Source: Oscillospiraceae bacterium
Lineage (GTDB): Bacteria > Bacillota > Clostridia > Oscillospirales > Ruminococcaceae
Assembly (NCBI GenBank): GCA_030539275.1
Contig: JAUNSK010000015.1
Location: 1-64,000, forward strand
Reading direction: 5' to 3'
Length of the DNA: 64,000 nucleotides
Made by a program: the position numbers and the translations under genes. The notes below the pieces were generated by a model, which saw nothing but the letters and a program-made list of their open reading frames with translations, searched no databases and was not told where the DNA came from. Every line of letters begins with the position of its first letter. Position 1 is the first letter of the stretch. Below, in pieces: positions 43,274-62,207 of this stretch.

Positions 43274-44305
43274 TTACCATGCAGGATCAGAAAGAGGAGG
43301 TGCAACGCACTGTTCATGGCTCAGATATTTAAGCTCCTTACTGGTTTCATCTGTAATGCTGCGGATACGGTAATAATCCTTTTTATCTACTATACAGTCA
43401 TCATTTACATCGGCAGCATTGAGGGGGAAAGTATGACCATTTACCGTCTGGAGTGATGTAGTAAGGAAGTTTTGTAAAATATCTGAATCCTTCCTGTCGA
43501 CTTTTCCATCAAGATTCAGGTCTCCTTTTCTGACAGGGCGGTCGACATATGAACCATGTGTGTCATTATCACTGCCGACAAGAATCGTATCAAGTGAATC
43601 AACAGTCAGGTCAGGGAGATCTCTGTTATCAAAAAATATACACGTCTCATCCCAGTCAATCTCACATGTTCCATGTGCATTGCACTGAGCAAATGTGATA
43701 TTGCCATGACTGTCAATGTCTGTAATAAATATAGAATGATGAAGAGTAGCAGGATTGACAAGTGTTCGCAGAATATCACCTTTTTGTGGGACATATTTTG
43801 TTTTGTTTCCTGTGATGTCTGTTATATTTAGCTCATTGTCAAATTTGTACTGGACAAATGTTTTTGTATTGTATATGTCAGAAGCTAACTTGTGTGCAAA
43901 CCCCTGACACTGCAGATAGCAGTTTCCGGAACCGCCTGAGGATGAAGCAGTACCTGATTGTGACGATGAAGTTCCGAAAATATTACTGAAATCATTGCTT
44001 CTGTAAATAATATAATCGTCTGTGGATATTCTGTTGCAGTAGTCTGACGAGTTTTTGCTGTGATCACACGGTGTTGTTGTGAATGTCTCACTGTTGCCGC
44101 CGTTGAAATAACACTGCTGACCACATGATGTTTCGGGATATTTATTCATTTCATTCGCAATAAGAGTATTCCAGTTGTCTGATACATATCTTTCAGTTAA
44201 GCCTTCTTTTGAAGCGTCAACAGCCGGTTCAATACACGTATATGAAAAAAATACTGCCGAAAGACAGACAACAAAGACTATTTTTATTATACTTATAATT
44301 TTCAT
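43274..44305 (-). CDS. Secreted papain-fold (CHAP/NlpC-like) protein with type I dockerin
   Basis: A 343-residue exported protein. It has a signal peptide (IIKIVFVVCLSAVFFSYT), a Cys/Ser/Gly-rich stretch and then a domain (~125-245) with NCYLQCQGFAHKLA, GDILRT and HHSIFITDI. This gives a plausible Cys...His pair of a CHAP- or NlpC-like amidase or peptidase. The C-terminal ~265-330 is a type I dockerin with two calcium loops, GDLNLDGKVDRKD and ADVNDDCIVDKKDYYRI. It could be a cell-wall or protein hydrolase docked to a cohesin. Catalytic activity is not proved by sequence. Confidence 0.82.
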   Translation of the reverse strand: MKIISIIKIVFVVCLSAVFFSYTCIEPAVDASKEGLTERYVSDNWNTLIANEMNKYPETSCGQQCYFNGGNSETFTTTPCDHSKNSSDYCNRISTDDYIIYRSNDFSNIFGTSSSQSGTASSSGGSGNCYLQCQGFAHKLASDIYNTKTFVQYKFDNELNITDITGNKTKYVPQKGDILRTLVNPATLHHSIFITDIDSHGNITFAQCNAHGTCEIDWDETCIFFDNRDLPDLTVDSLDTILVGSDNDTHGSYVDRPVRKGDLNLDGKVDRKDSDILQNFLTTSLQTVNGHTFPLNAADVNDDCIVDKKDYYRIRSITDETSKELKYLSHEQCVAPPLSDPAW

Positions 44306-48242: not shown

Positions 48243-51200
48243 ATGAAGAGGAAAATTATTTCGCTGTTTCTTTCTGTAATTTTCACTTTATCGGTGATTG
48301 CAGATCCGGGATTATGCAAAGCGGAAGGTTCTGAAACTCAGACCGGAAAGATCTCTGACTCAGATTACGGAGATCTGAACTGCGACTCAGAGATCAATGT
48401 ATTTGATGCTGTCAGATTAAAAAGAGCTGTGCTTGAAAATAATGTGGATAATATTGATATCCGCAGATCAGACCTTGATGGAGATAAAGAGATCACAGCT
48501 GCAGATTATATGGAATTGTCAATGTACATAATGAATTACATTCCTCAGTTTACGTATATGCTGGCTGATGATACTGACAGTGATGGGATATGTGATTATC
48601 TTGAAAAAGAAATGTACTATACAGACCCTGGATCTGCCGATTCAGATTCGGACGGTCTGACTGACTATGAAGAAATATTTTTATGTCATACTGACCCTTC
48701 CGCACCAGACAGCAATGATGCTGAAAATGATACCGATAATGATAAGCTGTCAAACATTGAAGAAGTAAAATATAATACAGATCCGACAAGCAGTGATACA
48801 GATTCAGACGGTCTTTCAGATTATGATGAAATAAACCTGTATAAAACTGATCCGCTGCTCCCTGATACAGACTGGGACAGTGTATCAGACTATGGTGAAA
48901 CAGTACTTAAAACAGATCCTCTGGTTATAACAGCATTTGATAAAGAAACATATTTTGATCAGGAAATAAGTGAAAACTCAGAAGTACTGACAAGTATCAA
49001 TACTCCTGAAAATAAATATAAACTGTCCCTGAAGCTGAATGCATCGGGCTATGCCGAAGATAATCTGAGTGCAATGAAAAGTTCATATTCCGGATATATA
49101 CATAACAGCAGGGAGTACAGCGCCATACTTGGCGACATTGTTGACATATCTTATTCGGACCTGTACAGTATCAGAAATGCAGAGCTATACTTTGATCTGA
49201 ATGATGAAAGTGCGCAGGAATATGCAGTATTTAAGTACGAGGAAGATCTGAATATGCTTATGCCTGTAGAAACATTCTATACTGATGATGATCATACAGC
49301 ATATATAACAGATGCCCGTACAGGAACCTACTGTGTGATGAATATAAAAAAATGGTACAGCTGCATGGGTGCGTCGGCTGGTGAACCGTCACAGGATCGT
49401 AATAATGTACAAGCGGGACAGCCGGTTTTAACAGACAGCAAGATCAATGTATTGTTTATGATCGATCTGAGATACGTTTCTAATCTTTGTGATATAAGTG
49501 AAGAAATAACGCAGGCATCAGAAGAACTGTTCAATAAATATTCAGACAGGGTCGAGGTAGAGATCTGTGAATTCAGTCAGGCAGGAGGTACAGTAACGGT
49601 TTCACAGTGGGAGACGCTTACGTGTATTGAAGAAGTTGAAATGGCCCTGAGCGCACTGGAGCCGTATTACGGTATGTTCTGTAACCTGCATGCAAGATAT
49701 CTTTTGTCAGTTATGGAAACTCCGCTGGACGTTGCATATTCAATATATAAAGAAAAGCAAAACGGCATGAATTTAGTATTTACTTTTGCTTCTAATGAAT
49801 ACGGAGATAATCTGTATCCTGAGGATATGTTTACAAAAATAAGTAATATAAGTGATTTTCATGTTTCATACATAGCTCCGACTGAAACAGCAACACATCT
49901 GATTGATTATGTATCAAAATATACAACCAAATACAGAGGGAAGATATTTTACGCCGGCGAAAATCTAAACAAAGAGATAACAGACTTTATTGTGGCTTGT
50001 AAAAACAAAAGTAAAAAGCCAACAAATTTCTGGAATTATTATTATAATAACGTTATGAAAAAGGGATGGGAGGATGGATCCGCAGAAAATATTCCTGATA
50101 CTGACGGTGATGGGGTAAATGATGCCGGTGAAATAAATTTTATCTGCGTTAAGGGCTATGATGAAAATGATGATGCTATAGTCAAAACCACAAAAGAGAT
50201 AGTTGAGGAATTACCAACAGAGACACAGGAAGGTGTTGAGTGGCTCTGTAAAAGACTGAAGGATTACGGACTTGATTATAGTGCTTTTCTTGACAGTGAA
50301 CTGCTGCTTTTACACTCATATCCGGATCTGATAGATTCCGACGGGGATGGAATACGAGATGATATTGATGCAAGTCCTTCTTTTGAATATGACTCATGCT
50401 TTGAACTTACTGATTATCATACAAGAGACCCATTTTCAGTGATGTACCAGGGATTGATCGATACCATGGAAAATTATTATTACGAAAAAGGTGTAAAATA
50501 TGACGGTCTTGATAAGACATATGAATCCCAGACAGTTACACCTGCCGACGTTGCATTAAAAGCCGGACTGATGATCGGGTCAGTGGGTGTTATATTTCCT
50601 CTGACTCCAAATCTCTTCAAGAAGCTCCTCAACAGAAAAGGCGATAATAAATTTACATTACGCAGTATGCCTGTTGCAGCCGAATGTCTGCAGAGCTACA
50701 CTGCAAATAATAAAAGATTGAAAAGTCTTCCGTATTTTAGCTGTGCCGTTGGAGGAACAAGAGAACAAAGAGAAAGATACTATAATCACATGAACAAAAT
50801 GATGTCCTGCTGTGAAAATATTCTGAAGCCCGGCAATGATGTAATAATCAAGAACAGACAGGAATCACCGGCCTTTGTGATGAACTTTGAAGTCAATGGT
50901 ACAGACGGAACATTCAGCAAAGCCACCGGTACTGAACTTGACTGGTATATCGGAGTAGGCGGGGGACATAATGGCATAGTATCAGATGTAAAGTGTTATG
51001 AAGAGAATAATGAAATACATTATCAGGCTAAGGTCAGTTATTTTCTGACTGATGTATATGACTGGAGCCCGTCCGGCGAAAAAGAGCTGTATCATCTGCA
51101 TACAAGCGGAGTATGCAAATCATATTATGACTACGGCGTATACGATACCACGATAACCTGGAAAAAAGGAGCGAGATATCCAAGATACTCCGACGTATGG

Positions 51201-51302
51201 TCTACAGATATTGATGTTACATCATTTGATGGTATTGAAGATACGCAGCTTGAAAATGCATATGAAAATGCAAAGAAAATCTTTCCGTCGCAGAAACAAT
51301 AA
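48243..51302 (+). CDS. Large secreted protein: dockerin, calcium-type repeats, vWA-like domain
   Basis: A 1019-residue exported protein. A signal peptide (~1-27) is followed by a type I dockerin at the N-terminus (~43-100: GDLNCDSEINVFDAVRL and SDLDGDKEITAADYMEL). Residues ~108-225 hold thrombospondin-type-3-like repeats (DTDSDGICDYLEKEMYYTDP and similar). Around 399-590 is a domain with a vWA-like opening INVLFMIDLRYVSN, but with a DLR in place of the MIDAS DxSxS, so metal binding there is doubtful. Two more calcium loops are DTDGDGVNDAGE (~618) and DSDGDGIRDDID (~698). The C-terminal ~880-1000 (ELDWYIGVGGGHNGIVSDV, YDWSPSGEKELYHLH) was not identified. It has no membrane anchor. Confidence 0.85.
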   Translation: MKRKIISLFLSVIFTLSVIADPGLCKAEGSETQTGKISDSDYGDLNCDSEINVFDAVRLKRAVLENNVDNIDIRRSDLDGDKEITAADYMELSMYIMNYIPQFTYMLADDTDSDGICDYLEKEMYYTDPGSADSDSDGLTDYEEIFLCHTDPSAPDSNDAENDTDNDKLSNIEEVKYNTDPTSSDTDSDGLSDYDEINLYKTDPLLPDTDWDSVSDYGETVLKTDPLVITAFDKETYFDQEISENSEVLTSINTPENKYKLSLKLNASGYAEDNLSAMKSSYSGYIHNSREYSAILGDIVDISYSDLYSIRNAELYFDLNDESAQEYAVFKYEEDLNMLMPVETFYTDDDHTAYITDARTGTYCVMNIKKWYSCMGASAGEPSQDRNNVQAGQPVLTDSKINVLFMIDLRYVSNLCDISEEITQASEELFNKYSDRVEVEICEFSQAGGTVTVSQWETLTCIEEVEMALSALEPYYGMFCNLHARYLLSVMETPLDVAYSIYKEKQNGMNLVFTFASNEYGDNLYPEDMFTKISNISDFHVSYIAPTETATHLIDYVSKYTTKYRGKIFYAGENLNKEITDFIVACKNKSKKPTNFWNYYYNNVMKKGWEDGSAENIPDTDGDGVNDAGEINFICVKGYDENDDAIVKTTKEIVEELPTETQEGVEWLCKRLKDYGLDYSAFLDSELLLLHSYPDLIDSDGDGIRDDIDASPSFEYDSCFELTDYHTRDPFSVMYQGLIDTMENYYYEKGVKYDGLDKTYESQTVTPADVALKAGLMIGSVGVIFPLTPNLFKKLLNRKGDNKFTLRSMPVAAECLQSYTANNKRLKSLPYFSCAVGGTREQRERYYNHMNKMMSCCENILKPGNDVIIKNRQESPAFVMNFEVNGTDGTFSKATGTELDWYIGVGGGHNGIVSDVKCYEENNEIHYQAKVSYFLTDVYDWSPSGEKELYHLHTSGVCKSYYDYGVYDTTITWKKGARYPRYSDVWSTDIDVTSFDGIEDTQLENAYENAKKIFPSQKQ

Positions 51303-51332: not shown

Positions 51333-51371
51333 AAAAGCAGGTATCAGAGACAGATCTGAGCCTGCTTTTTA
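51333..51371 (+). terminator. Terminator of the 1019-residue protein gene
   Basis: AAAAGCAGG pairs with CCTGCTTTT; an inner ATCAGA/TCTGA stem extends it; it runs into T. Confidence 0.85.
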
Positions 51372-51486: not shown

Positions 51487-51515
51487 TTGCCTGAAATTCA
51501 AAAATATGGTATAAT
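51487..51515 (+). promoter_or_regulatory. Promoter of the cohesin-like/giant surface protein operon
   Basis: TTGCCT (51487-51492), 17 bases, TATAAT (51510-51515) with an extended TGG. Confidence 0.8.
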
Positions 51516-51656: not shown

Positions 51657-52661
51657 ATGATACAAAAGATTTCAGCGGTATTAATGGCAGCTATAATTAT
51701 GGTATTTGCCATACCAAAGGCAAAGGTCCTGGCAGGGGAATATAACATAGGGATTACGATGCAGACGTTGGAGATAGATATTGATGAGATACCGGAGGAC
51801 AGATATGTATCTCTGGATGTGTTTTTGGAGAATAATCCAAGTGAAATTGAAAAAATATACTTTTTAATAGAGAAAGATTCAAGGTTAGAGTTTCAGTCGT
51901 TTTTTATTGGAGATTTTGATTTATTCAATGGACAAACAATATCTTTTTTAGATGATAATAAAGGGTTTATAGGACTAAGGTGTTCTCCTGATAAAAAGCT
52001 TACATGTACTGGAAAAATATTCAATATTCTTTTGAAATTACCAGACAATGTTGCGGTAGGAGACTTTTTTTCGGTGAAGTGGAAAAAAGAAAACGCTAGT
52101 GATTTGTGGCTAGGATATGTTGTGAAAGACAATATATTTGATCAGTCATTAAATGAAGAATACGATTCTACCTTTATGAATTTAACAGATGGAGGAATCA
52201 GGATAGTAGATCAAGAAAATGACAACGAACATCATGAATATAGTGATAAACAAATTACAGATACGCCACAGATTAATGATCCACCTGTTCAAGCTCAAGA
52301 AACACCACAAACTGTATATCAAGAACAATCGAATATAGAACCTTCAAAATCAGAAACTGTTACTAGTCCAAGCAATACTAAGATACTTGAAACAACAGGA
52401 ACAGATGAAATCGAAGAAACGGTTACTAAAAAGAAATTAGTTACTTCTGCAAGAAGAGAAAGTCAAAATACTAAAAAAATAAAACAAAAAACAACCACAA
52501 TTTTAAAGGATAATTATATTAGTGAGACAGTAACAAGTCGAGAAAAAAAACAGGAATCAAATAGTAGTATGAGTCTGGTTTTGATAGTTGGAGTTGCCTT
52601 GGCTGTTCTTGCATTAATAGGAGTAAGTACGTATATAGTAAAGAAAAGAAAGGATAAGTAG
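51657..52661 (+). CDS. Membrane-anchored protein with cohesin-like ectodomain
   Basis: A 334-residue surface protein. It has a signal peptide (~1-26), a beta-rich ectodomain (~28-182), a Thr/Ser/Gln/Glu/Lys-rich linker (~185-300), one C-terminal span (MSLVLIVGVALAVLALIGVS) and the basic tail KKRKDK. The ectodomain has a cohesin-like rhythm: a start on a two-residue beta pattern, YVSLDVFLENNPSEIEKI, then a middle ICSP-type strand region TGKIFNILLKLPDNVAVGD, and an end on TDGGIRIV, as cohesins end in a G-x-I/V strand. It is not a confident family match. Cohesins bind dockerins, which are encoded on both sides. The DNA is very AT-rich. Its stop is one base from the next ATG. Confidence 0.65.
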   Translation: MIQKISAVLMAAIIMVFAIPKAKVLAGEYNIGITMQTLEIDIDEIPEDRYVSLDVFLENNPSEIEKIYFLIEKDSRLEFQSFFIGDFDLFNGQTISFLDDNKGFIGLRCSPDKKLTCTGKIFNILLKLPDNVAVGDFFSVKWKKENASDLWLGYVVKDNIFDQSLNEEYDSTFMNLTDGGIRIVDQENDNEHHEYSDKQITDTPQINDPPVQAQETPQTVYQEQSNIEPSKSETVTSPSNTKILETTGTDEIEETVTKKKLVTSARRESQNTKKIKQKTTTILKDNYISETVTSREKKQESNSSMSLVLIVGVALAVLALIGVSTYIVKKRKDK

Positions 52662-52662
52662 A

Positions 52663-55600
52663 ATGAACAATGGCAGAAGAAAAGTACAGAGAGCAATAGC
52701 ATTTATATCATCTATAGCATTTTTAAGTTTTTCGCAAATATCAAGTATAGAAGTTTTTGCACAGGAAGTTCAGACAATGGTTTCGACTGATAATACAAAT
52801 GATGAGGTTTCTAATCCTATAACAGAAAAAAATAAAGATAAATATATATTCGATATTTCTGTCAAAGATACCTTAAACGAATTTGATAATTTTTTATTGA
52901 GTAAAATAAAAAATATTGCTGTCTACACACTATTTGGTTTAACTACAGATGAAGAAATGAAAGCAGAACTGGATGTTGATCAGCTAGCTGATGTATCTGA
53001 ATATAAAAAGAATATTATAATAGTTGACAATTATGAGTTTTTCGTCCAAAGCTTAATTGTAGAGAATGGTATAGTCAGTATTAGTCTAGTACAGTGTGTA
53101 AAAGTTAGTTTAACTAACAAAGATGCGGCAGTGATACAAGATAACTATATACAGTTTCAAAAAGCTAGAATATATCTATCCAGTCTAAAAAAAATAGGGG
53201 ATACATATTATGCTGAAAAATATAGTAACGCAAATTTAAATTGTAAGGCAGAGTTTGGATGGCAGACTAACAACAATATGTACCACTTGTATGTAACAGA
53301 TAATATATCAATAAAAGCTAATGATAATGGCATTCAAGTAATTTGTGGGTCTGAGAACTATGCATTCGAATTTTATAAGGCACAATATAGTATTAAATTC
53401 AATGATGATAAGTTTACTGTAAATGGTCAATATATGTTGGAAACAACTTATGATAAAGTATGCGATAATTGCATTATAAGAGCTAATGAAGGATATTGGA
53501 TAAATGAAGTAGTGATTAATAATACTAAGGTATATAATGCAGAAAATGAAAAAAAATCTGAAATAGATTTAAGTGATATCCTACGTGATGAAACTTTATT
53601 ATGTCAAGGCATTGATAAGTATGAAGTTACGATAAACCTGAGTAGAAATAATTTTCAATATGAAGTTTTTTTTAAAGATGGATTTCAGAAAGATTCGGAA
53701 GTAATTTATAAAACTAGTCAAGAAACAGAAAAAATATTAAATAAAGGAGTAAAATATATTTATTTAGATAACTATATCTTTGAAGATAGCATAGTTAAAT
53801 ATAGTTTGTATCAGGTTGAAGTTAATGACAAAATGTATACTATTTCACCGCAAAACAACAACCTAAAATATCAAATTTGTCTAGATAATTTTGTTTCAGA
53901 GAAAGTTAATAAATTAAAATGCTATTATAGTCTAATCAGAAGCGAGCAAATATCTGAGAAGTTTTCCTTCAGTGGGAATAAAATTAATAATAATATATTT
54001 ATTAATAGTGTAAATAGTGTTATAGATAACAATAGAATATTAATTAAAAATAATCTTGATGCAAATAATCAATGCAATGTAATATATCATGATTTCTCTA
54101 TAAAAAATGGATTAGGATCATGTTGCTATAATGATAACTTTCGAGGCGATTTTTCCTATGATGGAAAAATTCATCATGACCTCATTACAATCCGCGCCAT
54201 CATCGATAATTCCACTGACACTCCAGTAAACTGCATAACCTCCCCGATATTCATCTACATAGACACTCATGCACCGATTATATCATCTGTTACAGGTGAT
54301 GACTGGACGAATAATGTAAGCAAATTTGTTATTACTGCGCAGGACCGAAAAATAAAAACTCCGGACAGTCCGGAGATATTCTCTGATATAACAAAGTTCC
54401 ATATTGGTGACTATACAATAACAAAGTCACAGGACGGAAAGTGGGATATTGCTGTTGATGAAGAGAAAACTCCTGAATATGTGATAACTGAGTTTACACA
54501 GGATAATGACAACTATTCCGTAAAGATCACGGCTGACAAAAGTATCAATATGACCTTGCCTGTTACAGCTGTTGATGAGTGCGATAATGTTTCAGAGCAG
54601 TCGTCTCTGAATGTTAAAATTGATAAGGACAAGCCCGCAGTAAATGGTATATCTGCTGACTGTACACTTAAAAATATAAATAACCCGGATGAGAGCCGCG
54701 GTTATAAAAACACTATTGTCTGCACTAATGATCCCGGAGATGACTTTATAACGCTCAGAGTAAATGCTACCGATATTTTTACAGATAAAGAACTTTCGTC
54801 GTCAATAGAAAATGCATTTATTGGTCTCAGCGGTAATAAGACCAGCAGCAACTTTGAAGCGTTTATTGCGGATGATTCATCGGATCTGGCGGCCGGAGAG
54901 CTTGTTTTCAGGATTCCAAAAGAAGAAAAAGCAAAGTCTGCTTTTATTAAGATCGAGGATGCAGCAGGGAATTTCTGCAGATATGATCTGAGCAGCCTGA
55001 GTGACAGCCATTTGTCTGAGAGTGACGATAATACATATTTAATTATTGATACAACAAGCCCTGAGTGTTCAGCAAAGATCTGCTGTGATGAAGAAAAAAC
55101 ACATAAGGCAGATATAATAACACAAAACAATGAAGTACAGCACTGGTATACTGATTATCCTGAGATCAGACTTGATCTTAACGATAAGAACCCTGATATA
55201 TGTTCAGGTCTTGACTCGCTTGCTGTTAGTCTGAACGGTCAGGAGATTCTGAAAACTGATGGTATCGGTCAGACCGGCATTTCATCATACAGGCTTATGG
55301 TCACAGATGCAGGAACAAAAGACAGCGAGTATAAGGTTACACTGTTTGACGGTGAGAGTGAGGTATGTTCCGCTCAGACGCCAAAGAATGAGTCCGGTGC
55401 TCTTGCTTTCTCAGTAACTTTATCAGATTATGCATCGAACTTAAGCAGCTATGATATACCGGTGTTTTACGTAGACAACAGCTCGCCGGTTATTGACCAT
55501 TCATTCACGGTTGCAGCACCTGAAAATGAAATAACATATACTCCGTTCGGAACGTTTACTAATGAAAAGGTTGATATCTATGTGACGGTAACAGATAAAA

Positions 55601-58600
55601 TGCCGTCATCAGGACTTGACAAGGTGATACTCAGGGTTGGCGCAAAGGAATATGTTACGAAGGACAAGCCTCAGAAAAATGATCAGGGACAGTACATCTG
55701 CAGGTTCAGTGTACCGGAAAATGTCATAGACAAGGATACCGTTTTGTCAGGTAACGTCAGTGCAACTGCTTTTGATATGGCAGGAAACCAGACTGTCTGG
55801 TATGATGTGAGCGATACGATAGAAAAGACTGACTGGGTGCCGCTCATGTCTGCTAAAGAATCGTCAAATATTATGCTTGAAAATATTAAGCCGGTAATTC
55901 AGCAGAAGGTAAACGGTGAAAACGTGGTTCACTACCACGATGAAATACTTGACCAGGACTGGTACAGCGGTGATGTTGGAGTTGATTACATATATTCAGA
56001 TATCCAGTCAGGACTGAGAAAAATTGTTCTTGGTGTTACAAATTCATTTGATGCAAAAACCTCTGAGAACAGCTGGGACAGCACTGATGTACAGGAGTTT
56101 GAAAAGAACTTCACCATGAGTACAGATCCGGGCAGCGATGGACTTTTTACATTCACAACGTCTGCATGTGACAACTCAGGCAACTCTGAAAATTCAGTAT
56201 TAACAGTATTTAAGGATACAACGGCACCTGAGATCACGGGATTTAGTATAAATCAGAGCATAGACATGTCTCTGAAAAGACTGACATCGGATATTGCGGA
56301 ATATGGGACACAGACGCTGACACCTGAGGATATGAGAGATCTGATGTACAGGTTCTTTTCTCAGAAGGTGACACAGGTCACTATTTCTGCAAAGGATGAA
56401 AATGCGAGCTCCGGGCTCAGGAGCATTGAATACACGCTGTATGATGAAGCCGGAAGTGCAGTCAGTCATAATACAATGCCGGTAGATGAAAACGGACAGA
56501 TAACATTTATGCTCGATGAAGGCTTTAAAGGAAATATAGCAGCCTGTGCATCCGACAACGTACACAATACTAGTGAAGCTGCATGTATGTCAGGTGCTGT
56601 GCTTGAAAATGATGCAAGACATATGGTAAGTTCAGATATTTCTGTGAAGCTGCCGGATACACCGTTCACTGACAGCAATGGTCTGCCTCTGTATAACAAT
56701 GATATAAGAGCGGTGATGAGCGTCGGTGATGAATTTTCCGGAATAGAAAGTGTAATGTGGAGCATCACGGAAAACGGAATAGATACATGGAATGAGACAT
56801 ATATAGGTTCTGACAGCGTACATCAGAAGTCAGACGGAGTAAATGGATGGGAGATAAAGGACTGCCATAAAAATCTGGTCAGCAGTGCTGAATCTTCTGC
56901 AGATATTTCAAAGAATGCCAATGATCTTGCACTGAAACTCAGGATCATTGATAACTGCGGGAATGTGTCTGAGGATGCAGTACCTTTCTCGATAGACAGG
57001 ACTGCACCGCAGATAAATGTAAGCTTCAGTTCTGAGGCTCCTGACAAGGCATATAAAAACATTTATAATAAGGCCAGAAAAGCAACGATCAGCATAAGAG
57101 ACAGAAACTTTGATGCCTCCGGAACCTCAGTCGATATTTCAAATACGTCATCAGCACAGAAAGCTACAGTATCAGATTTCAGACTGGTTTCCGGGACACA
57201 GGGAACAGACAGTGCTGTGTATGAGGCAGAGGTTGTGTTTGATAAGGACGGAACATATAAGCTGAGCATTGTGAGTAAGGACAGATGTGACAATACCAGC
57301 GAAAAATATGAATCTGATGTTTTCATTATTGATACCACGGCACCGGTTATCAGCGTGAAGTTTAACGATGAACAGGATAAAAAGTATTATGCAGCAAAGA
57401 GAACAGCTGAGATAACTGTTACTGAGGACAACTTTGATGCTTCAAGAATATTGATCAGCGGAACATATAACTCTAAAAATGAGAACTTCCCGAAGCTTTC
57501 AGAGTGGAAGACAACGGGCAATGTACATAAGGCACAGATAGTGTTCGAGGAAGACGGTAATTATGTTTTTAACGTGACCGGCACGGATATGGCATCAAAC
57601 AATGCGCAAAAAAGCTTTAACTGTGAATTCTGCATAGATAAAAAGGTGCCTGAGATAAAGTTTGACGGAGTAAAGGACAAGTCATCCAACAGAGGACAGG
57701 TTATACCTGTAATAACATTTGATGATATTAATCTTGATATGTCAACAGTGAAGGTGACAATAAACGGTTCTATGAATCCTGGTACACGTGATCTTGACGG
57801 GGAACTTAAGAAAACACAGACAGGTGCGGTATTTACCGGGACAGATTTTGCAAGAGAAGAAAAAAATGATGATATTTACACAGTAACAGCCCAGGCAAAG
57901 GACTGGTCAGGAAATACATTAACAAACTCAATAACATTTTCAGTCAACAGATTCGGATCAACCTACAGGCTCGCAGATGCTACAAAGGAACTTCTCGGTC
58001 AGTATGTTAATACAGAACAGGATGTTGTTTTGTATGAGGTAAATACAGATGAGTTGAGTGAAAACACTGTAAAGATCACAAAGGACGGAACCACCAGTAC
58101 ACTTACAGAAAATGAGGACTATACAGTCACACATACAGGAGGAAACGGTAAATGGTCTGAGTACGAATATGTTATCAGTGCCAAAAACTTTACAGATGAT
58201 GCGTCTTATAGTGTTACAGTATCATCATGTGACAAGGCCGGAAATCAGAATGTAAATTCATCTGACCACAGCAGGCTGGATATAAATTTCGGCGTTGATA
58301 AAACTAACCCGCTGTGCTCTACACTTGATCTTCATGAAAACGAGAGCTACAAGGCTGAAAGCAGGGTATTCAATCTTGCAATATCCGATAATATCGGCGT
58401 AAAGAGTGTTGAAGTCTACTCCAATGAAAATCCTGTCGAGTCTATCTATGAAGAGGAGATATGTACATTTTCACTTTCAAGCTCACCGGAGGTTCAGAAG
58501 ATAACTATACTTGTTACCGACCTTGCAGGCAATACAAAGCAAATGATAATTGATAACATTCTTATATCTACAAGTTCTGTCAGGATCCTGCTTCATGAAA

Positions 58601-58686
58601 CATGGTTTAAAGCAGCCAGTGCGGCGGCAGCATTGATTGCGGCAGCAGGTGCTTTTCTGATAATAAGAAAAAAGAGAGCAAGGTAA
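52663..58686 (+). CDS. Giant surface protein with Ig-like repeats and C-terminal membrane anchor
   Basis: A 2007-residue exported protein. A signal peptide (~8-34) is followed by a ~470-residue N-terminal region with no recognised family (~35-505). A long array of Ig-like/fibronectin-like repeats (~506-1960) comes next. These carry recurring strand ends such as DTTAPVISVKF, DRTAPQINVSF, FVIDTTSP-type linkers, and ITVTEDNFDASRI/ISIRDRNFDASG. A C-terminal span (ASAAAALIAAAGAFLII) and basic tail RKKRAR anchor it. It is co-transcribed with the cohesin-like gene (1 base apart). Base and codon use change sharply near 54180: the first ~505 codons are AT-rich, the rest typical of the window. It is probably a long cell-surface adhesin or scaffold (inference). 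Confidence 0.85.
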   Translation: MNNGRRKVQRAIAFISSIAFLSFSQISSIEVFAQEVQTMVSTDNTNDEVSNPITEKNKDKYIFDISVKDTLNEFDNFLLSKIKNIAVYTLFGLTTDEEMKAELDVDQLADVSEYKKNIIIVDNYEFFVQSLIVENGIVSISLVQCVKVSLTNKDAAVIQDNYIQFQKARIYLSSLKKIGDTYYAEKYSNANLNCKAEFGWQTNNNMYHLYVTDNISIKANDNGIQVICGSENYAFEFYKAQYSIKFNDDKFTVNGQYMLETTYDKVCDNCIIRANEGYWINEVVINNTKVYNAENEKKSEIDLSDILRDETLLCQGIDKYEVTINLSRNNFQYEVFFKDGFQKDSEVIYKTSQETEKILNKGVKYIYLDNYIFEDSIVKYSLYQVEVNDKMYTISPQNNNLKYQICLDNFVSEKVNKLKCYYSLIRSEQISEKFSFSGNKINNNIFINSVNSVIDNNRILIKNNLDANNQCNVIYHDFSIKNGLGSCCYNDNFRGDFSYDGKIHHDLITIRAIIDNSTDTPVNCITSPIFIYIDTHAPIISSVTGDDWTNNVSKFVITAQDRKIKTPDSPEIFSDITKFHIGDYTITKSQDGKWDIAVDEEKTPEYVITEFTQDNDNYSVKITADKSINMTLPVTAVDECDNVSEQSSLNVKIDKDKPAVNGISADCTLKNINNPDESRGYKNTIVCTNDPGDDFITLRVNATDIFTDKELSSSIENAFIGLSGNKTSSNFEAFIADDSSDLAAGELVFRIPKEEKAKSAFIKIEDAAGNFCRYDLSSLSDSHLSESDDNTYLIIDTTSPECSAKICCDEEKTHKADIITQNNEVQHWYTDYPEIRLDLNDKNPDICSGLDSLAVSLNGQEILKTDGIGQTGISSYRLMVTDAGTKDSEYKVTLFDGESEVCSAQTPKNESGALAFSVTLSDYASNLSSYDIPVFYVDNSSPVIDHSFTVAAPENEITYTPFGTFTNEKVDIYVTVTDKMPSSGLDKVILRVGAKEYVTKDKPQKNDQGQYICRFSVPENVIDKDTVLSGNVSATAFDMAGNQTVWYDVSDTIEKTDWVPLMSAKESSNIMLENIKPVIQQKVNGENVVHYHDEILDQDWYSGDVGVDYIYSDIQSGLRKIVLGVTNSFDAKTSENSWDSTDVQEFEKNFTMSTDPGSDGLFTFTTSACDNSGNSENSVLTVFKDTTAPEITGFSINQSIDMSLKRLTSDIAEYGTQTLTPEDMRDLMYRFFSQKVTQVTISAKDENASSGLRSIEYTLYDEAGSAVSHNTMPVDENGQITFMLDEGFKGNIAACASDNVHNTSEAACMSGAVLENDARHMVSSDISVKLPDTPFTDSNGLPLYNNDIRAVMSVGDEFSGIESVMWSITENGIDTWNETYIGSDSVHQKSDGVNGWEIKDCHKNLVSSAESSADISKNANDLALKLRIIDNCGNVSEDAVPFSIDRTAPQINVSFSSEAPDKAYKNIYNKARKATISIRDRNFDASGTSVDISNTSSAQKATVSDFRLVSGTQGTDSAVYEAEVVFDKDGTYKLSIVSKDRCDNTSEKYESDVFIIDTTAPVISVKFNDEQDKKYYAAKRTAEITVTEDNFDASRILISGTYNSKNENFPKLSEWKTTGNVHKAQIVFEEDGNYVFNVTGTDMASNNAQKSFNCEFCIDKKVPEIKFDGVKDKSSNRGQVIPVITFDDINLDMSTVKVTINGSMNPGTRDLDGELKKTQTGAVFTGTDFAREEKNDDIYTVTAQAKDWSGNTLTNSITFSVNRFGSTYRLADATKELLGQYVNTEQDVVLYEVNTDELSENTVKITKDGTTSTLTENEDYTVTHTGGNGKWSEYEYVISAKNFTDDASYSVTVSSCDKAGNQNVNSSDHSRLDINFGVDKTNPLCSTLDLHENESYKAESRVFNLAISDNIGVKSVEVYSNENPVESIYEEEICTFSLSSSPEVQKITILVTDLAGNTKQMIIDNILISTSSVRILLHETWFKAASAAAALIAAAGAFLIIRKKRAR

Positions 58687-59918: not shown

Positions 59919-60365
59919 TTAATCAAAATGATTCGGTATATACTGAGAAAGAAGCGCATAGTCAGCTAAATCTGTATATCCGTCATTATTTATGTCTCCT
60001 CTGCTCGCCTGTTCAGCATTAAAAGTAATATCTTTCAATATGTACTGTTTAAATCTCGAAAGATCGCAGATGTTAGTACGACCGTCCATTGTAACATCAC
60101 CGACTTTGAATTTTACAACTTCTGTGGAGCTGCCGTTGAATGTCTGGATTACTGCATAACCTAATCCCTGATCTTTGCATACCTGGATTGCCACGTTTAA
60201 GTTCTGAGTGGAATAAAGCCCCATACCGGTCTCGTACTCCACAACAGTATAACCACTGTAGAAGTGCACTGCAGCGTCAACCTTCTGACTAAGTCCGCCT
60301 GATACTGCGCCCATTAAAGCAACTGCCATAGCAGCTGACATGATCTTTTTAATCGTTTTTTTCAT
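59919..60365 (-). CDS. Small secreted dockerin protein, copy 1
   Basis: A 148-residue exported protein. The signal peptide covers ~1-31 (MSAAMAVALMGAVSGGL). A small domain of ~55 residues (~35-88) has VCKDQGLGYAVIQTF and VVKFKVGDV. The C-terminal type I dockerin (~89-148) has the two calcium loops GDVTMDGRTNICDLSRFKQ and GDINNDGYTDLADYALLSQ. The small domain was not recognised. The copy is highly similar to copy 2. The ribosome site is GAAAGGAC. It has a consensus-like promoter (60437-60465). It may be an adaptor presented on a cohesin (inference). Confidence 0.85.
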   Translation of the reverse strand: MKKTIKKIMSAAMAVALMGAVSGGLSQKVDAAVHFYSGYTVVEYETGMGLYSTQNLNVAIQVCKDQGLGYAVIQTFNGSSTEVVKFKVGDVTMDGRTNICDLSRFKQYILKDITFNAEQASRGDINNDGYTDLADYALLSQYIPNHFD

Positions 60366-60436
60366 AATATGTCCTTTCTTAACTGTCTTTTTTTGATGAA
60401 CAGCATAAAATATATTTGTATAATTGTACCTTTATT

Positions 60437-60465
60437 ATTATACCATATAGTTATAAATATGTAAA
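60437..60465 (-). promoter_or_regulatory. Promoter of small dockerin gene 1
   Basis: On the minus strand TTTACA, 17 bases, TATAAT with an extended TGG. Confidence 0.7.
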
Positions 60466-60619
60466 TAATTAGCATTAATTATATGTATATAAAAAAATGC
60501 TGATGTTTTAGTATAAATACAACAAAAAAAACACCTGATTTAGTAACCAGAGTGTATTTTTAAACAATTATTCTTTTAACCTGTCTTACGTCAAGGACAG
60601 GTGAGGAGTTCATAAAAAT

Positions 60620-60673
60620 ATTCCCTTAGTGAGTTCACATGAATAAAATTTCAAGTGTTATCACTAAGGGAAT
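60620..60673 (-). terminator. Conserved 3'-UTR hairpin of small dockerin gene 2
   Basis: ATTCCCTTAGTGA and TCACTAAGGGAAT pair along 13 bases; the loop ATGAATAAAAT is nearly the same as in the copy after gene 1. Confidence 0.8.
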
Positions 60674-60797
60674 TATTTATGCCGTAAATATATAATAAAG
60701 GTTTGATTATTAATTTACAACAGGATTATACAAAATGTTTTATACGCAAGTTCATACTGATTATTTGTAATCGTTTAACTCTATATGAAACAGCTTA

Positions 60798-61247
60798 TTA
60801 ATAGCCGCCTTCTTCAGCAATATATGATCTGAGATACATATAGTCGATTAAATCTGCAGATCCGTCGTTATTTACGTCTCCTCTGCTCTCCTCTTCAGCA
60901 TTATAATCTATATCCTTCATCATATACTGCTGATATCTTGCAAGATCTGCGACGCTTGTATAACCGTCCATTGTAACATCACCGACTTTGAATTTTACAA
61001 TTTCTGCTGAGCTGCCGCTGTATGTCTGAATTACTGAATAACCTAATCCCTGATCTTTGCACACCAGAATTGCCAGGTTTAAGTTCTTAGTTGAATAAAT
61101 TGCCTGACTGTTTCCCCGCTGCATAACAGAATAACCACTGTAGTTGTGCACTGAAGCGCTAACCTTCTGATTGAGTCCGCCTGATACTGCGCCCATTAAA
61201 GCAACTGCCATAGCAGCTGACATTATTTTATTAATTGTTTTTTTCAT
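60798..61247 (-). CDS. Small secreted dockerin protein, copy 2
   Basis: The 149-residue paralogue of copy 1, with the same signal peptide wording (MSAAMAVALMGAVSGGL), small domain VCKDQGLGYSVIQTY and IVKFKVGDV, and a C-terminal dockerin (GDVTMDGYTSVADLARYQQ, GDVNNDGSADLIDYMYLRS). The start is set at 61247, where AAAGGACG precedes the ATG; a longer frame from 61352 has no ribosome site. Its 3' UTR matches that of copy 1 over much of its length, so gene and flank were duplicated together. Function is unknown beyond likely dockerin-mediated attachment. Confidence 0.85.
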   Translation of the reverse strand: MKKTINKIMSAAMAVALMGAVSGGLNQKVSASVHNYSGYSVMQRGNSQAIYSTKNLNLAILVCKDQGLGYSVIQTYSGSSAEIVKFKVGDVTMDGYTSVADLARYQQYMMKDIDYNAEEESRGDVNNDGSADLIDYMYLRSYIAEEGGY

Positions 61248-61323
61248 AATACGTCCTTTCATAAATGTCATATTTTTTAATAATGAACAGCATAAAACAT
61301 ATCTGTATAAATACTCCTGTATT

Positions 61324-61352
61324 ATTGTACCACTTATATATAAAAATGTCAA
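61324..61352 (-). promoter_or_regulatory. Promoter of small dockerin gene 2
   Basis: On the minus strand TTGACA, 17 bases, TACAAT with an extended TGG. Confidence 0.75.
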
Positions 61353-61450
61353 GAAATATAATAAAAGTATTTTTTATGCTAATAAATGTATTACAAACTA
61401 TAGTATTAGTAAATAAATATATTAAAAAAAGATATCAGTTGTATATTAAT

Positions 61451-61502
61451 TCCCCTTAGTGAACCTGCCTGAAAATATTATCAGGCGACTTCTCTAAGGG
61501 GA
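61451..61502 (-). terminator. Conserved 3'-UTR hairpin of small dockerin gene 3
   Basis: TCCCCTTAGTGAA and TTCTCTAAGGGGA pair (with a mismatch); a second stem GCCTGA/TCAGGC lies inside. It is the diverged third copy of the element. Confidence 0.75.
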
Positions 61503-61673
61503 CGCATTTTTATATGAAATTGAGTTTCAATTATACTCTATATCCCAAATCAAGGTGTTTAAAACAAATAGCTGAATATGAAGGTCCTGAAGTTTTAATA
61601 TAATTATCTTAAATGATATGTATCAACAGAAAATTCTGTTGCAAAGGTTTATTATCAGCCGCGTTTTTTGTGG

Positions 61674-62123
61674 TTACTCAACACCGCTGTTATTTACGAT
61701 AAATCTCCTGATTAAGGCAGCATCCTGAATATCTACTGAGCCGTCATCGTTTACATCTGCTCTTGAGCGCTGAGAGGGAGTTAAAGTTGTCTGATAAAGC
61801 AAATGATGTTTAATAAAATCTACATCTGCCTGATTTAATAAAGAATCCATATTAGCATCTCCGACTTTGTATCTCAGTACTGTTGACAGACGGTTCTGGA
61901 ATGTTTCCCGAACCTCATATCCTACACCAAGTTTGCAGCACTCGAAAATTGCCTGTGAAATAGTGTAATAACGAGCTACTACTGTATCAGTAGCAAAATT
62001 ATTAACTGCATAAGGATTGTAGTATTCTTCTGCTCCGACTGACGGTACCATGCCCATGGATAACGTGCTCATGATTGCTCCTGCCAGAACGGCAGATATA
62101 ACTTTCTTAAATGTTTTTTTCAT
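61674..62123 (-). CDS. Small secreted dockerin protein, copy 3 (diverged)
   Basis: A 149-residue paralogue more distant than copies 1 and 2. It has a signal peptide (ISAVLAGAIMSTLSMGMV), the small domain now as CCKLGVGYEVRETF and VLRYKVGDA, and a dockerin (GDANMDSLLNQADVDFIKHH, ADVNDDGSVDIQDAALIRR). In the first calcium loop one usual Asp/Asn is Ser-Leu, which may weaken binding. The ATG at 62123 has GGAGGAG upstream; the frame's earlier start at 62153 overlaps that site. Its promoter is TTGACA-17-TATAAT. Confidence 0.83.
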   Translation of the reverse strand: MKKTFKKVISAVLAGAIMSTLSMGMVPSVGAEEYYNPYAVNNFATDTVVARYYTISQAIFECCKLGVGYEVRETFQNRLSTVLRYKVGDANMDSLLNQADVDFIKHHLLYQTTLTPSQRSRADVNDDGSVDIQDAALIRRFIVNNSGVE

Positions 62124-62207
62124 ACTTTCTCCTCCAAAAAAATATTGAACCATCTTTCATTGAACTTTTTGTTATATATGACTTAATTTGTATAATAGAG
62201 TAAGCTA

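Follow-up and report, generated by a model that had tools for sequence, protein, structure and literature searches.

A cohesin-fold membrane protein paired with a giant Ig-like rod, a probable stand-alone paralogue of a pair from T7SSe/T7SSj-like loci

The window analysed here, a stretch of 64,000 nucleotides, comprises bases 1-64000 of one contig (C43) of a genome of 3.68 Mb in 49 contigs. Between genes for dockerin proteins it carries a gene for a predicted cohesin-fold membrane protein (COH) and, one base after its stop codon, the start of a gene for a giant Ig-like protein (the rod). The features considered are as follows.

48243..51302, + strand: upstream neighbour, outside the pair, a 1019-aa protein with dockerin and TSP3 repeats (Pfam)
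51333..51369, + strand: terminator-like hairpin with T tract, 3' of the upstream dockerin gene (folding versus shuffles)
51487..51515, + strand: promoter-like site TTGCCT-17-TATAAT; a TG precedes the second hexamer (motif search)
51657..52661, + strand: COH, putative cohesin-fold membrane protein, 334 aa (ORF, fold, hydropathy, family profile)
51723..52226, + strand: stretch modelled as a cohesin domain (COH residues 23-190)
52663..58686, + strand: TseI-like giant Ig rod, 2007 aa (ORF, Pfam Big_13, homology to the rod on contig C41, hydropathy)
59919..62153, - strand: downstream neighbours, outside the pair, three small secreted-looking dockerin proteins (59919-60365, 60798-61352 and 61674-62153; ORFs, Pfam)

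The layout of COH comprises a signal, an ectodomain at about residues 28-183, a linker rich in Thr, Glu and Ser, a predicted membrane span near residues 305-325 and a basic tail. Thr, Glu, Ser and Lys are abundant over residues 187-306, and hydropathy peaks (19 residues, >=1.6) occur solely at residues 1 and 305, a pattern that fits a predicted signal peptide and one C-terminal membrane span, as the first-pass annotation had described. The same annotation had proposed a cohesin-like ectodomain, and this is borne out by the predicted structure, in which the model of residues 23-190 matches cohesins, including ScaE, ScaG and 'autonomous' cohesins of R. flavefaciens, and by a profile of 15 COH-family sequences, which gave six matches among PDB sequences at E<=10 (best 1.3e-5), all six of them deposited as cohesin, scaffoldin or cell-wall anchoring proteins. 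On the modelled structure, COH is assigned to the cohesin fold. The single COH sequence gave no match to the Pfam cohesin model PF00963 (E up to 1) and COH is absent from the Pfam cohesin matches of its own genome, while the COH-family profile missed the two best Pfam cohesins of that genome (contig C40, in L001). A likeness of COH residues 206-332 to the NCBIfam model of EssA, a component of T7SSb, is weak (E 0.005, 16.7 bits, cut-off 32.45), involves a low-complexity stretch and was not repeated in the R. flavefaciens copy; homology to EssA was rejected on these grounds and is kept as a lead only.

Other genes with cohesin-like parts were seen during the survey. Runs of three to four lipoprotein-like genes with cohesin-like ends occur in L003-L006 (G000:C19), L034:5280-9383 and L038:9082-12038; those in L034 and L038 precede an apparent GAPDH gene, and these cohesins are of a non-scaffoldin kind. 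The protein at L023:884-2158 (G038:C67), which is matched by the COH-family profile, is cohesin-like at its front, Ig-like in the middle and dockerin-like at its end.

The rod shows hydropathy peaks (19 residues, >=1.6) solely at residues 11 and 1983 and ends in a basic tail, which again fits a predicted signal peptide and one C-terminal membrane span. Big_13 in this protein exceeds the Pfam cut-off, in agreement with the earlier description of a 2007-residue Ig-like surface protein one base from COH. It is homologous to the rod on contig C41, the two being 35% identical across an alignment of 1564 positions.

The DNA that leads from the upstream dockerin gene to the pair contains the terminator-like hairpin (dG -19.8 kcal/mol, z -4.2, equalled by 0 of 200 shuffles), which a simple scan with a loop limit of 8 had missed. 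The promoter-like site that follows it is weak evidence when taken alone, because such sites are common by chance (41 found in the region versus 31.4 expected). The protein encoded at 48243-51302 has an N-terminal dockerin, TSP3 repeats and then, by eye, a vWA-like stretch without a metal site, followed by a C-terminal region outside any assigned domain. At 43274-44305 is encoded a further dockerin protein, the front of which resembles by eye a CHAP/NlpC-type Cys/His hydrolase; the dockerin is the one domain that Pfam identifies in it. The three small dockerin proteins resemble a tandem family, with alike signal peptides and a short front domain.

All five dockerin genes of the window noted in the first-pass annotation (starting at 43274, 48243, 59919, 60798 and 61674) exceed the Pfam Dockerin_1 cut-off. 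Five dockerin genes per 20 kb are rare in the genome, being reached in 0.8% of 20-kb windows, a figure that rests on contigs with partly estimated sizes. Genome-wide there are 146 dockerin matches (143 positions once merged), nine Pfam cohesin matches, of which five exceed the cut-off, one GH48 match and 15 GH9 matches; the source genome is that of an ordinary cellulosome producer. The statement that no carbohydrate-active enzyme is present holds at most for the window and not for the GH48- and GH9-bearing genome around it. The scaffoldin-like genes sit on contig C40, and the COH-rod pair, on C43, is not encoded with them.

The sole good paralogue of COH in the source genome is encoded on contig C41 (the third match has an E of 3.4) and is followed by its own rod of 2014 aa. 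Directly adjoining this pair are genes for a small membrane protein, a Ser/Thr kinase, a PPM phosphatase and a DUF6382-FHA protein, and two genes further, on the other strand, is a group encoding two uncharacterised proteins, a 1573-aa FHA-FtsK ATPase, an 83-aa YukD-like protein, WXG100 proteins and a lipoprotein. The kinase, PPM, DUF6382, FHA and FtsK matches all exceed the Pfam cut-offs, as do Big_13 and Big_3_3 in the giant Ig protein, which has a signal and a C-terminal span. One WXG100 protein exceeds its cut-off (35.1 bits) and the second lies under it (24.2, cut-off 27.3). The 83-aa gene is in the YukD/EsaB position and its Pfam evidence is weak (ubiquitin, 0.061), as is that of the copy in G038 (YukD, 0.0086, under the cut-off); the small protein, of 148 aa, is placed in the single-span slot (TseH/TseK in T7SSe, K in T7SSj) by position and size only.

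Two MAGs, one of R. flavefaciens (L055) and one of a Ruminococcus from rabbit gut (L056, a locus that recurs as G566 in L151), have all genes in one direction in the order J-F-D-K-COH-I-p310-p325-B-C, with gaps of <=21 bases from J to B. WXG100-like genes and a lipoprotein gene come after the ATPase gene in L151; the L055 DNA examined ends inside the ATPase gene, and in G731 no WXG100-like or lipoprotein genes were seen in the 900 bases examined beyond the ATPase. In total, 21 distinct COH loci were counted. Eight lie directly behind the kinase/phosphatase/FHA operon (C41, G005:C206, G038, G566, G731, L055, L058 and L062), with COH interrupted in L062 and the gene of the small protein not identified in G731. 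The ATPase or its start is on the contig in six of these eight, the exceptions being G005:C206, which shows no ATPase, and L062, where the contig ends first. Another 12 are not behind the operon, among which G007 has only 193 bases upstream and several others are on short contigs, and one more (G812) is a solitary COH without a rod. The gene after COH is visible in 19 loci, and in 18 of them it is the rod gene or the beginning of it, one of these 18 having only a 104-residue fragment.

As described in the main text of PMC11217815, T7SSe consists of TseA, A2, B, C, D, F, H, I, J and K, most of which T7SSj has as well. The giant Ig-like TsdI/TseI, which carries a signal peptide and a C-terminal span, is proposed there to span the envelope, and TsdI is likened to EsaA, the wall-spanning partner of T7SSb. 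Compared with that description, the C41-type locus shares the FHA ATPase, the WXG100 pair, the PPM phosphatase, the DUF6382-FHA protein, the kinase (with a TPR-like C-terminus in T7SSj) and the giant TsxI, along with a candidate for the small single-span protein. It differs in the cohesin-fold protein beside TsxI, which is not described there for T7SSe/T7SSj, and in the uncharacterised p310 and p325, which are extra in the Ruminococcus locus. By gene content the C41-type locus is a putative T7SSe/T7SSj-like locus, and the rod of the window fits the published TseI, having been set against TsxI by architecture and not by alignment. The words 'cohesin' and 'Ruminococc' have no occurrence in the main text of PMC11217815, and literature searches gave, by title and start of abstract, nothing related that joins cohesin with type VII secretion or WXG100 and no such locus for Ruminococcus with WXG100 or type VII secretion; only this 2024 paper by Garrett, Higginson and Palmer was found to name T7SSe. 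Since relatives of the pair sit in T7SSe/T7SSj-like loci, the window pair is classed, on homology, as a stand-alone paralogue of the T7SS-locus pair. Unlike those loci, it is without adjoining machinery: neither the window ORFs listed nor the rest of C43 hold an ATPase or other core gene beside it, and the ATPase matches of the source genome are on C41 and C27 only.

Three further arrangements were seen near such genes. Contig C47 of the same assembly (L099:3224-10234, G000:C47) bears a second cluster of DUF6382-FHA, PPM, kinase and small membrane protein genes with small WXG100-sized genes, on an 18-kb contig with neither an ATPase nor a COH-rod pair. A second, shorter ATPase type of 1401 aa (L083:8572-14234, G000:C27) has three small neighbours, one of them YukD-sized, and is present in 11 of 11 genus genomes. 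In L033:780-13776 (G010:C112), a COH-rod pair has a second protein kinase (Pfam 5.8e-18) on one side and a pretoxin-HINT protein (1.9e-39) on the other, and small genes intervene.

The first-pass annotation took the neighbouring dockerin proteins as the partners of COH and saw in them a cellulosome-type assembly used for something else. In the stretches examined around the pairs of C41, G038, L055, G566 and L058, the dockerin profile gave no match, the nearest dockerin on C41 being about 33 kb from the pair; it gave three in the 20-kb G005 contig and two near the G731 pair, at distances of about 7 and 12 kb. Among stand-alone pairs, those of L030, L031 and L032 had a single match apiece and those of L033-L038 had no match. 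The proposed partnership is not supported, given the terminator-like hairpin between the upstream dockerin gene and the pair, the inconstancy of dockerins near the relatives and the fact that the five belong to 143 in an ordinary cellulosome genome. COH could still act as an autonomous cohesin, that is, as a cell-surface receptor for one or more dockerin proteins of the genome, a reading favoured by its fold, with ScaE, ScaG and 'autonomous' cohesins among the matches, by five nearby dockerin genes, rare for 20 kb, and by the dockerin genes near some relatives. It is rendered improbable by the five T7SS-locus pairs with none found nearby, by the hairpin, by the scaffoldin-like cohesins elsewhere in the genome and by the distance of the COH family from what the Pfam cohesin model can detect; dockerin binding by COH is unproven. 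A cellulosome-type assembly was rejected as the lead, and retained as a rival, because the genome has an ordinary cellulosome and some relatives of the pair are found among T7SS genes. Of the earlier interpretation as a whole, the cohesin-type fold, the membrane anchoring and the pairing with an Ig giant are supported; the dockerin partners and the cellulosome-type assembly are not.

Known cohesins, a kind of module most familiar from complexes of cellulose-degrading enzymes, offer further comparison. ScaE (2zf9, 4iu2, 8ajy) and ScaG (4n2o, 4wkz) of R. flavefaciens share with COH the fold, a related host and the surface location, but they are cellulosome dockerin binders by their PDB titles, whereas COH has a T7SS-type context and no shown dockerin partner. 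Cohesins outside cellulosomes are known, by their titles, from Archaeoglobus (2xdh) and Clostridium perfringens (2vo8, 2w1n), and TMEM132 (PMC6030884), again by title, stands for membrane adhesion proteins that have both cohesin and Ig domains; these differ from COH in architecture and host.

The C41 ATPase was searched in 17 genomes, 12 of which comprise the genus and G038. Among these 12, COH occurs in nine, near relatives of that ATPase occur in five, all five with COH, and three have neither. The pair without a near ATPase is found in four of the 12 (G004, G006, G007 and G009), which hold only a more distant ATPase type of about 1400 aa that is also present in G001-G003, genomes without the pair. 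Among 396 family genomes, COH (>100 bits) was found in nine and the near ATPase (48% identity or more; the next has 39%) in six, all within the nine (hypergeometric 1.6e-11, a figure that ignores kinship); these genomes come from two draws, in which scoring covered only some of the first-look candidates and individual genomes were matched between the draws only where listed. Three near-ATPase loci are without a pair (G008:C48, G010:C12 and G005:C102) and their genomes have pairs elsewhere, as a role in trans needs. Around ATPase relatives in 11 class genomes (18 partial stretches, L103-L120), neither the COH nor the rod profile found a match, and misses are possible there because the stretches are partial and the ORF filter drops a gene overlapped by a longer frame, as had happened to the COH gene in L155. 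In the genome contig scan, the single COH protein found no relative and the family profile found 13 loci. A scan of viral contigs confirmed no relative, and a mobile-element origin was set aside.

These distributions bear on whether COH and the rod are instead an adhesin pair, an adhesion or recognition unit of their own that was later encoded in a T7SS operon by one lineage. Room has to be left for this reading because the four genomes with a pair and without a near ATPase speak directly for it, and the dozen loci not behind the kinase operon, the solitary COH, the diversified cores of stand-alone copies and the variable outer half of the rod point the same way. Against it are the conserved operon position in eight loci, the presence of COH in every near-ATPase genome (5/5; 6/6 in the larger draw) and the fit of the rod to the published TseI, and we regard it as possible, if on the unlikely side.

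Conservation within the loci was compared among three close copies (L055, L056 and L058). The COH ectodomains are 73-79% identical, the kinase and phosphatase 79-86%, and the COH linker and span 34-45%; the rod is 35-37% identical over its first 1000 residues and 73-74% over its last 800, from which we infer that its base is kept while the outer half changes. By these alignments, the in-locus ectodomain appears conserved about like the kinase and phosphatase, and the outer rod appears variable. Stand-alone COH copies of G008 and G010 were compared in four cases with one copy: DNA identity is 95-100% from -120 to +180, only 47-80% across the cohesin core (240-540) and, for copies long enough, 80-98% past position 720; in two of the four, from different genomes, it is 88-100% over 600 bases upstream. 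The sharp edges of these mosaics suggest core exchange or strong selection on the cores. A fifth copy, G008:C6, is more distant throughout, with no sharp mosaic edges. At L034:15977-18352 (G010:C9), two COH copies follow one another, separated by a rod fragment of 104 residues, an arrangement resembling a cassette array; their flanks are nearly identical and their cores differ. COH and rod distances correlate (r 0.84, 0 of 5000 permutations), which may reflect only shared descent.

The window pair is about as distant from the C41 paralogue (32% identity in the ectodomain, 42% in the rod base) as from other species. This distance, and the missing machinery genes nearby, would suit a relic, a duplicated pair without function, yet both frames are open over 7 kb and signal, repeats and membrane span are retained, so that we give this explanation very little credence.

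The explanation that we place first, at roughly an even chance, is that the window pair is a stand-alone paralogue pair of a T7SSe/T7SSj-like locus, acting in contact or in spanning the envelope. The pairs within T7SS loci of rumen and gut bacteria suggest a role in secretion or cell contact. The rod would stand on the membrane via its conserved base and cross the cell wall, with the fast-changing outer half directed outward, and the cohesin head, tethered by about 110 residues, would dock on the rod or on a rod-bound protein; COH and rod together would form the envelope-spanning contact part of the secretion apparatus. The copy in the window may be an alternative surface pair, working in trans with the C41 machinery or with the C47 kinase-phosphatase cluster. 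Against this leading reading stand the four pair-bearing genomes without a near ATPase, the solitary COH of G812 and a window contig without machinery. More tentatively, and with more doubt than confidence, the cohesin module may be a structural or recognition part of the T7SS, together with the Ig rod, the spare pairs serving as interchangeable contact heads with exchangeable cores and variable tips.

Little is known of what the non-canonical T7SS types have outside the cell, and a cohesin-fold partner of TseI would be a concrete, testable component that links cellulosome modules with type VII secretion. The in-locus copies, which are conserved, and the stand-alone copies, which are diversified, provide a natural contrast. 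If the proposal is true, a bacterium that makes cellulosomes can also have a cohesin that is not part of them.
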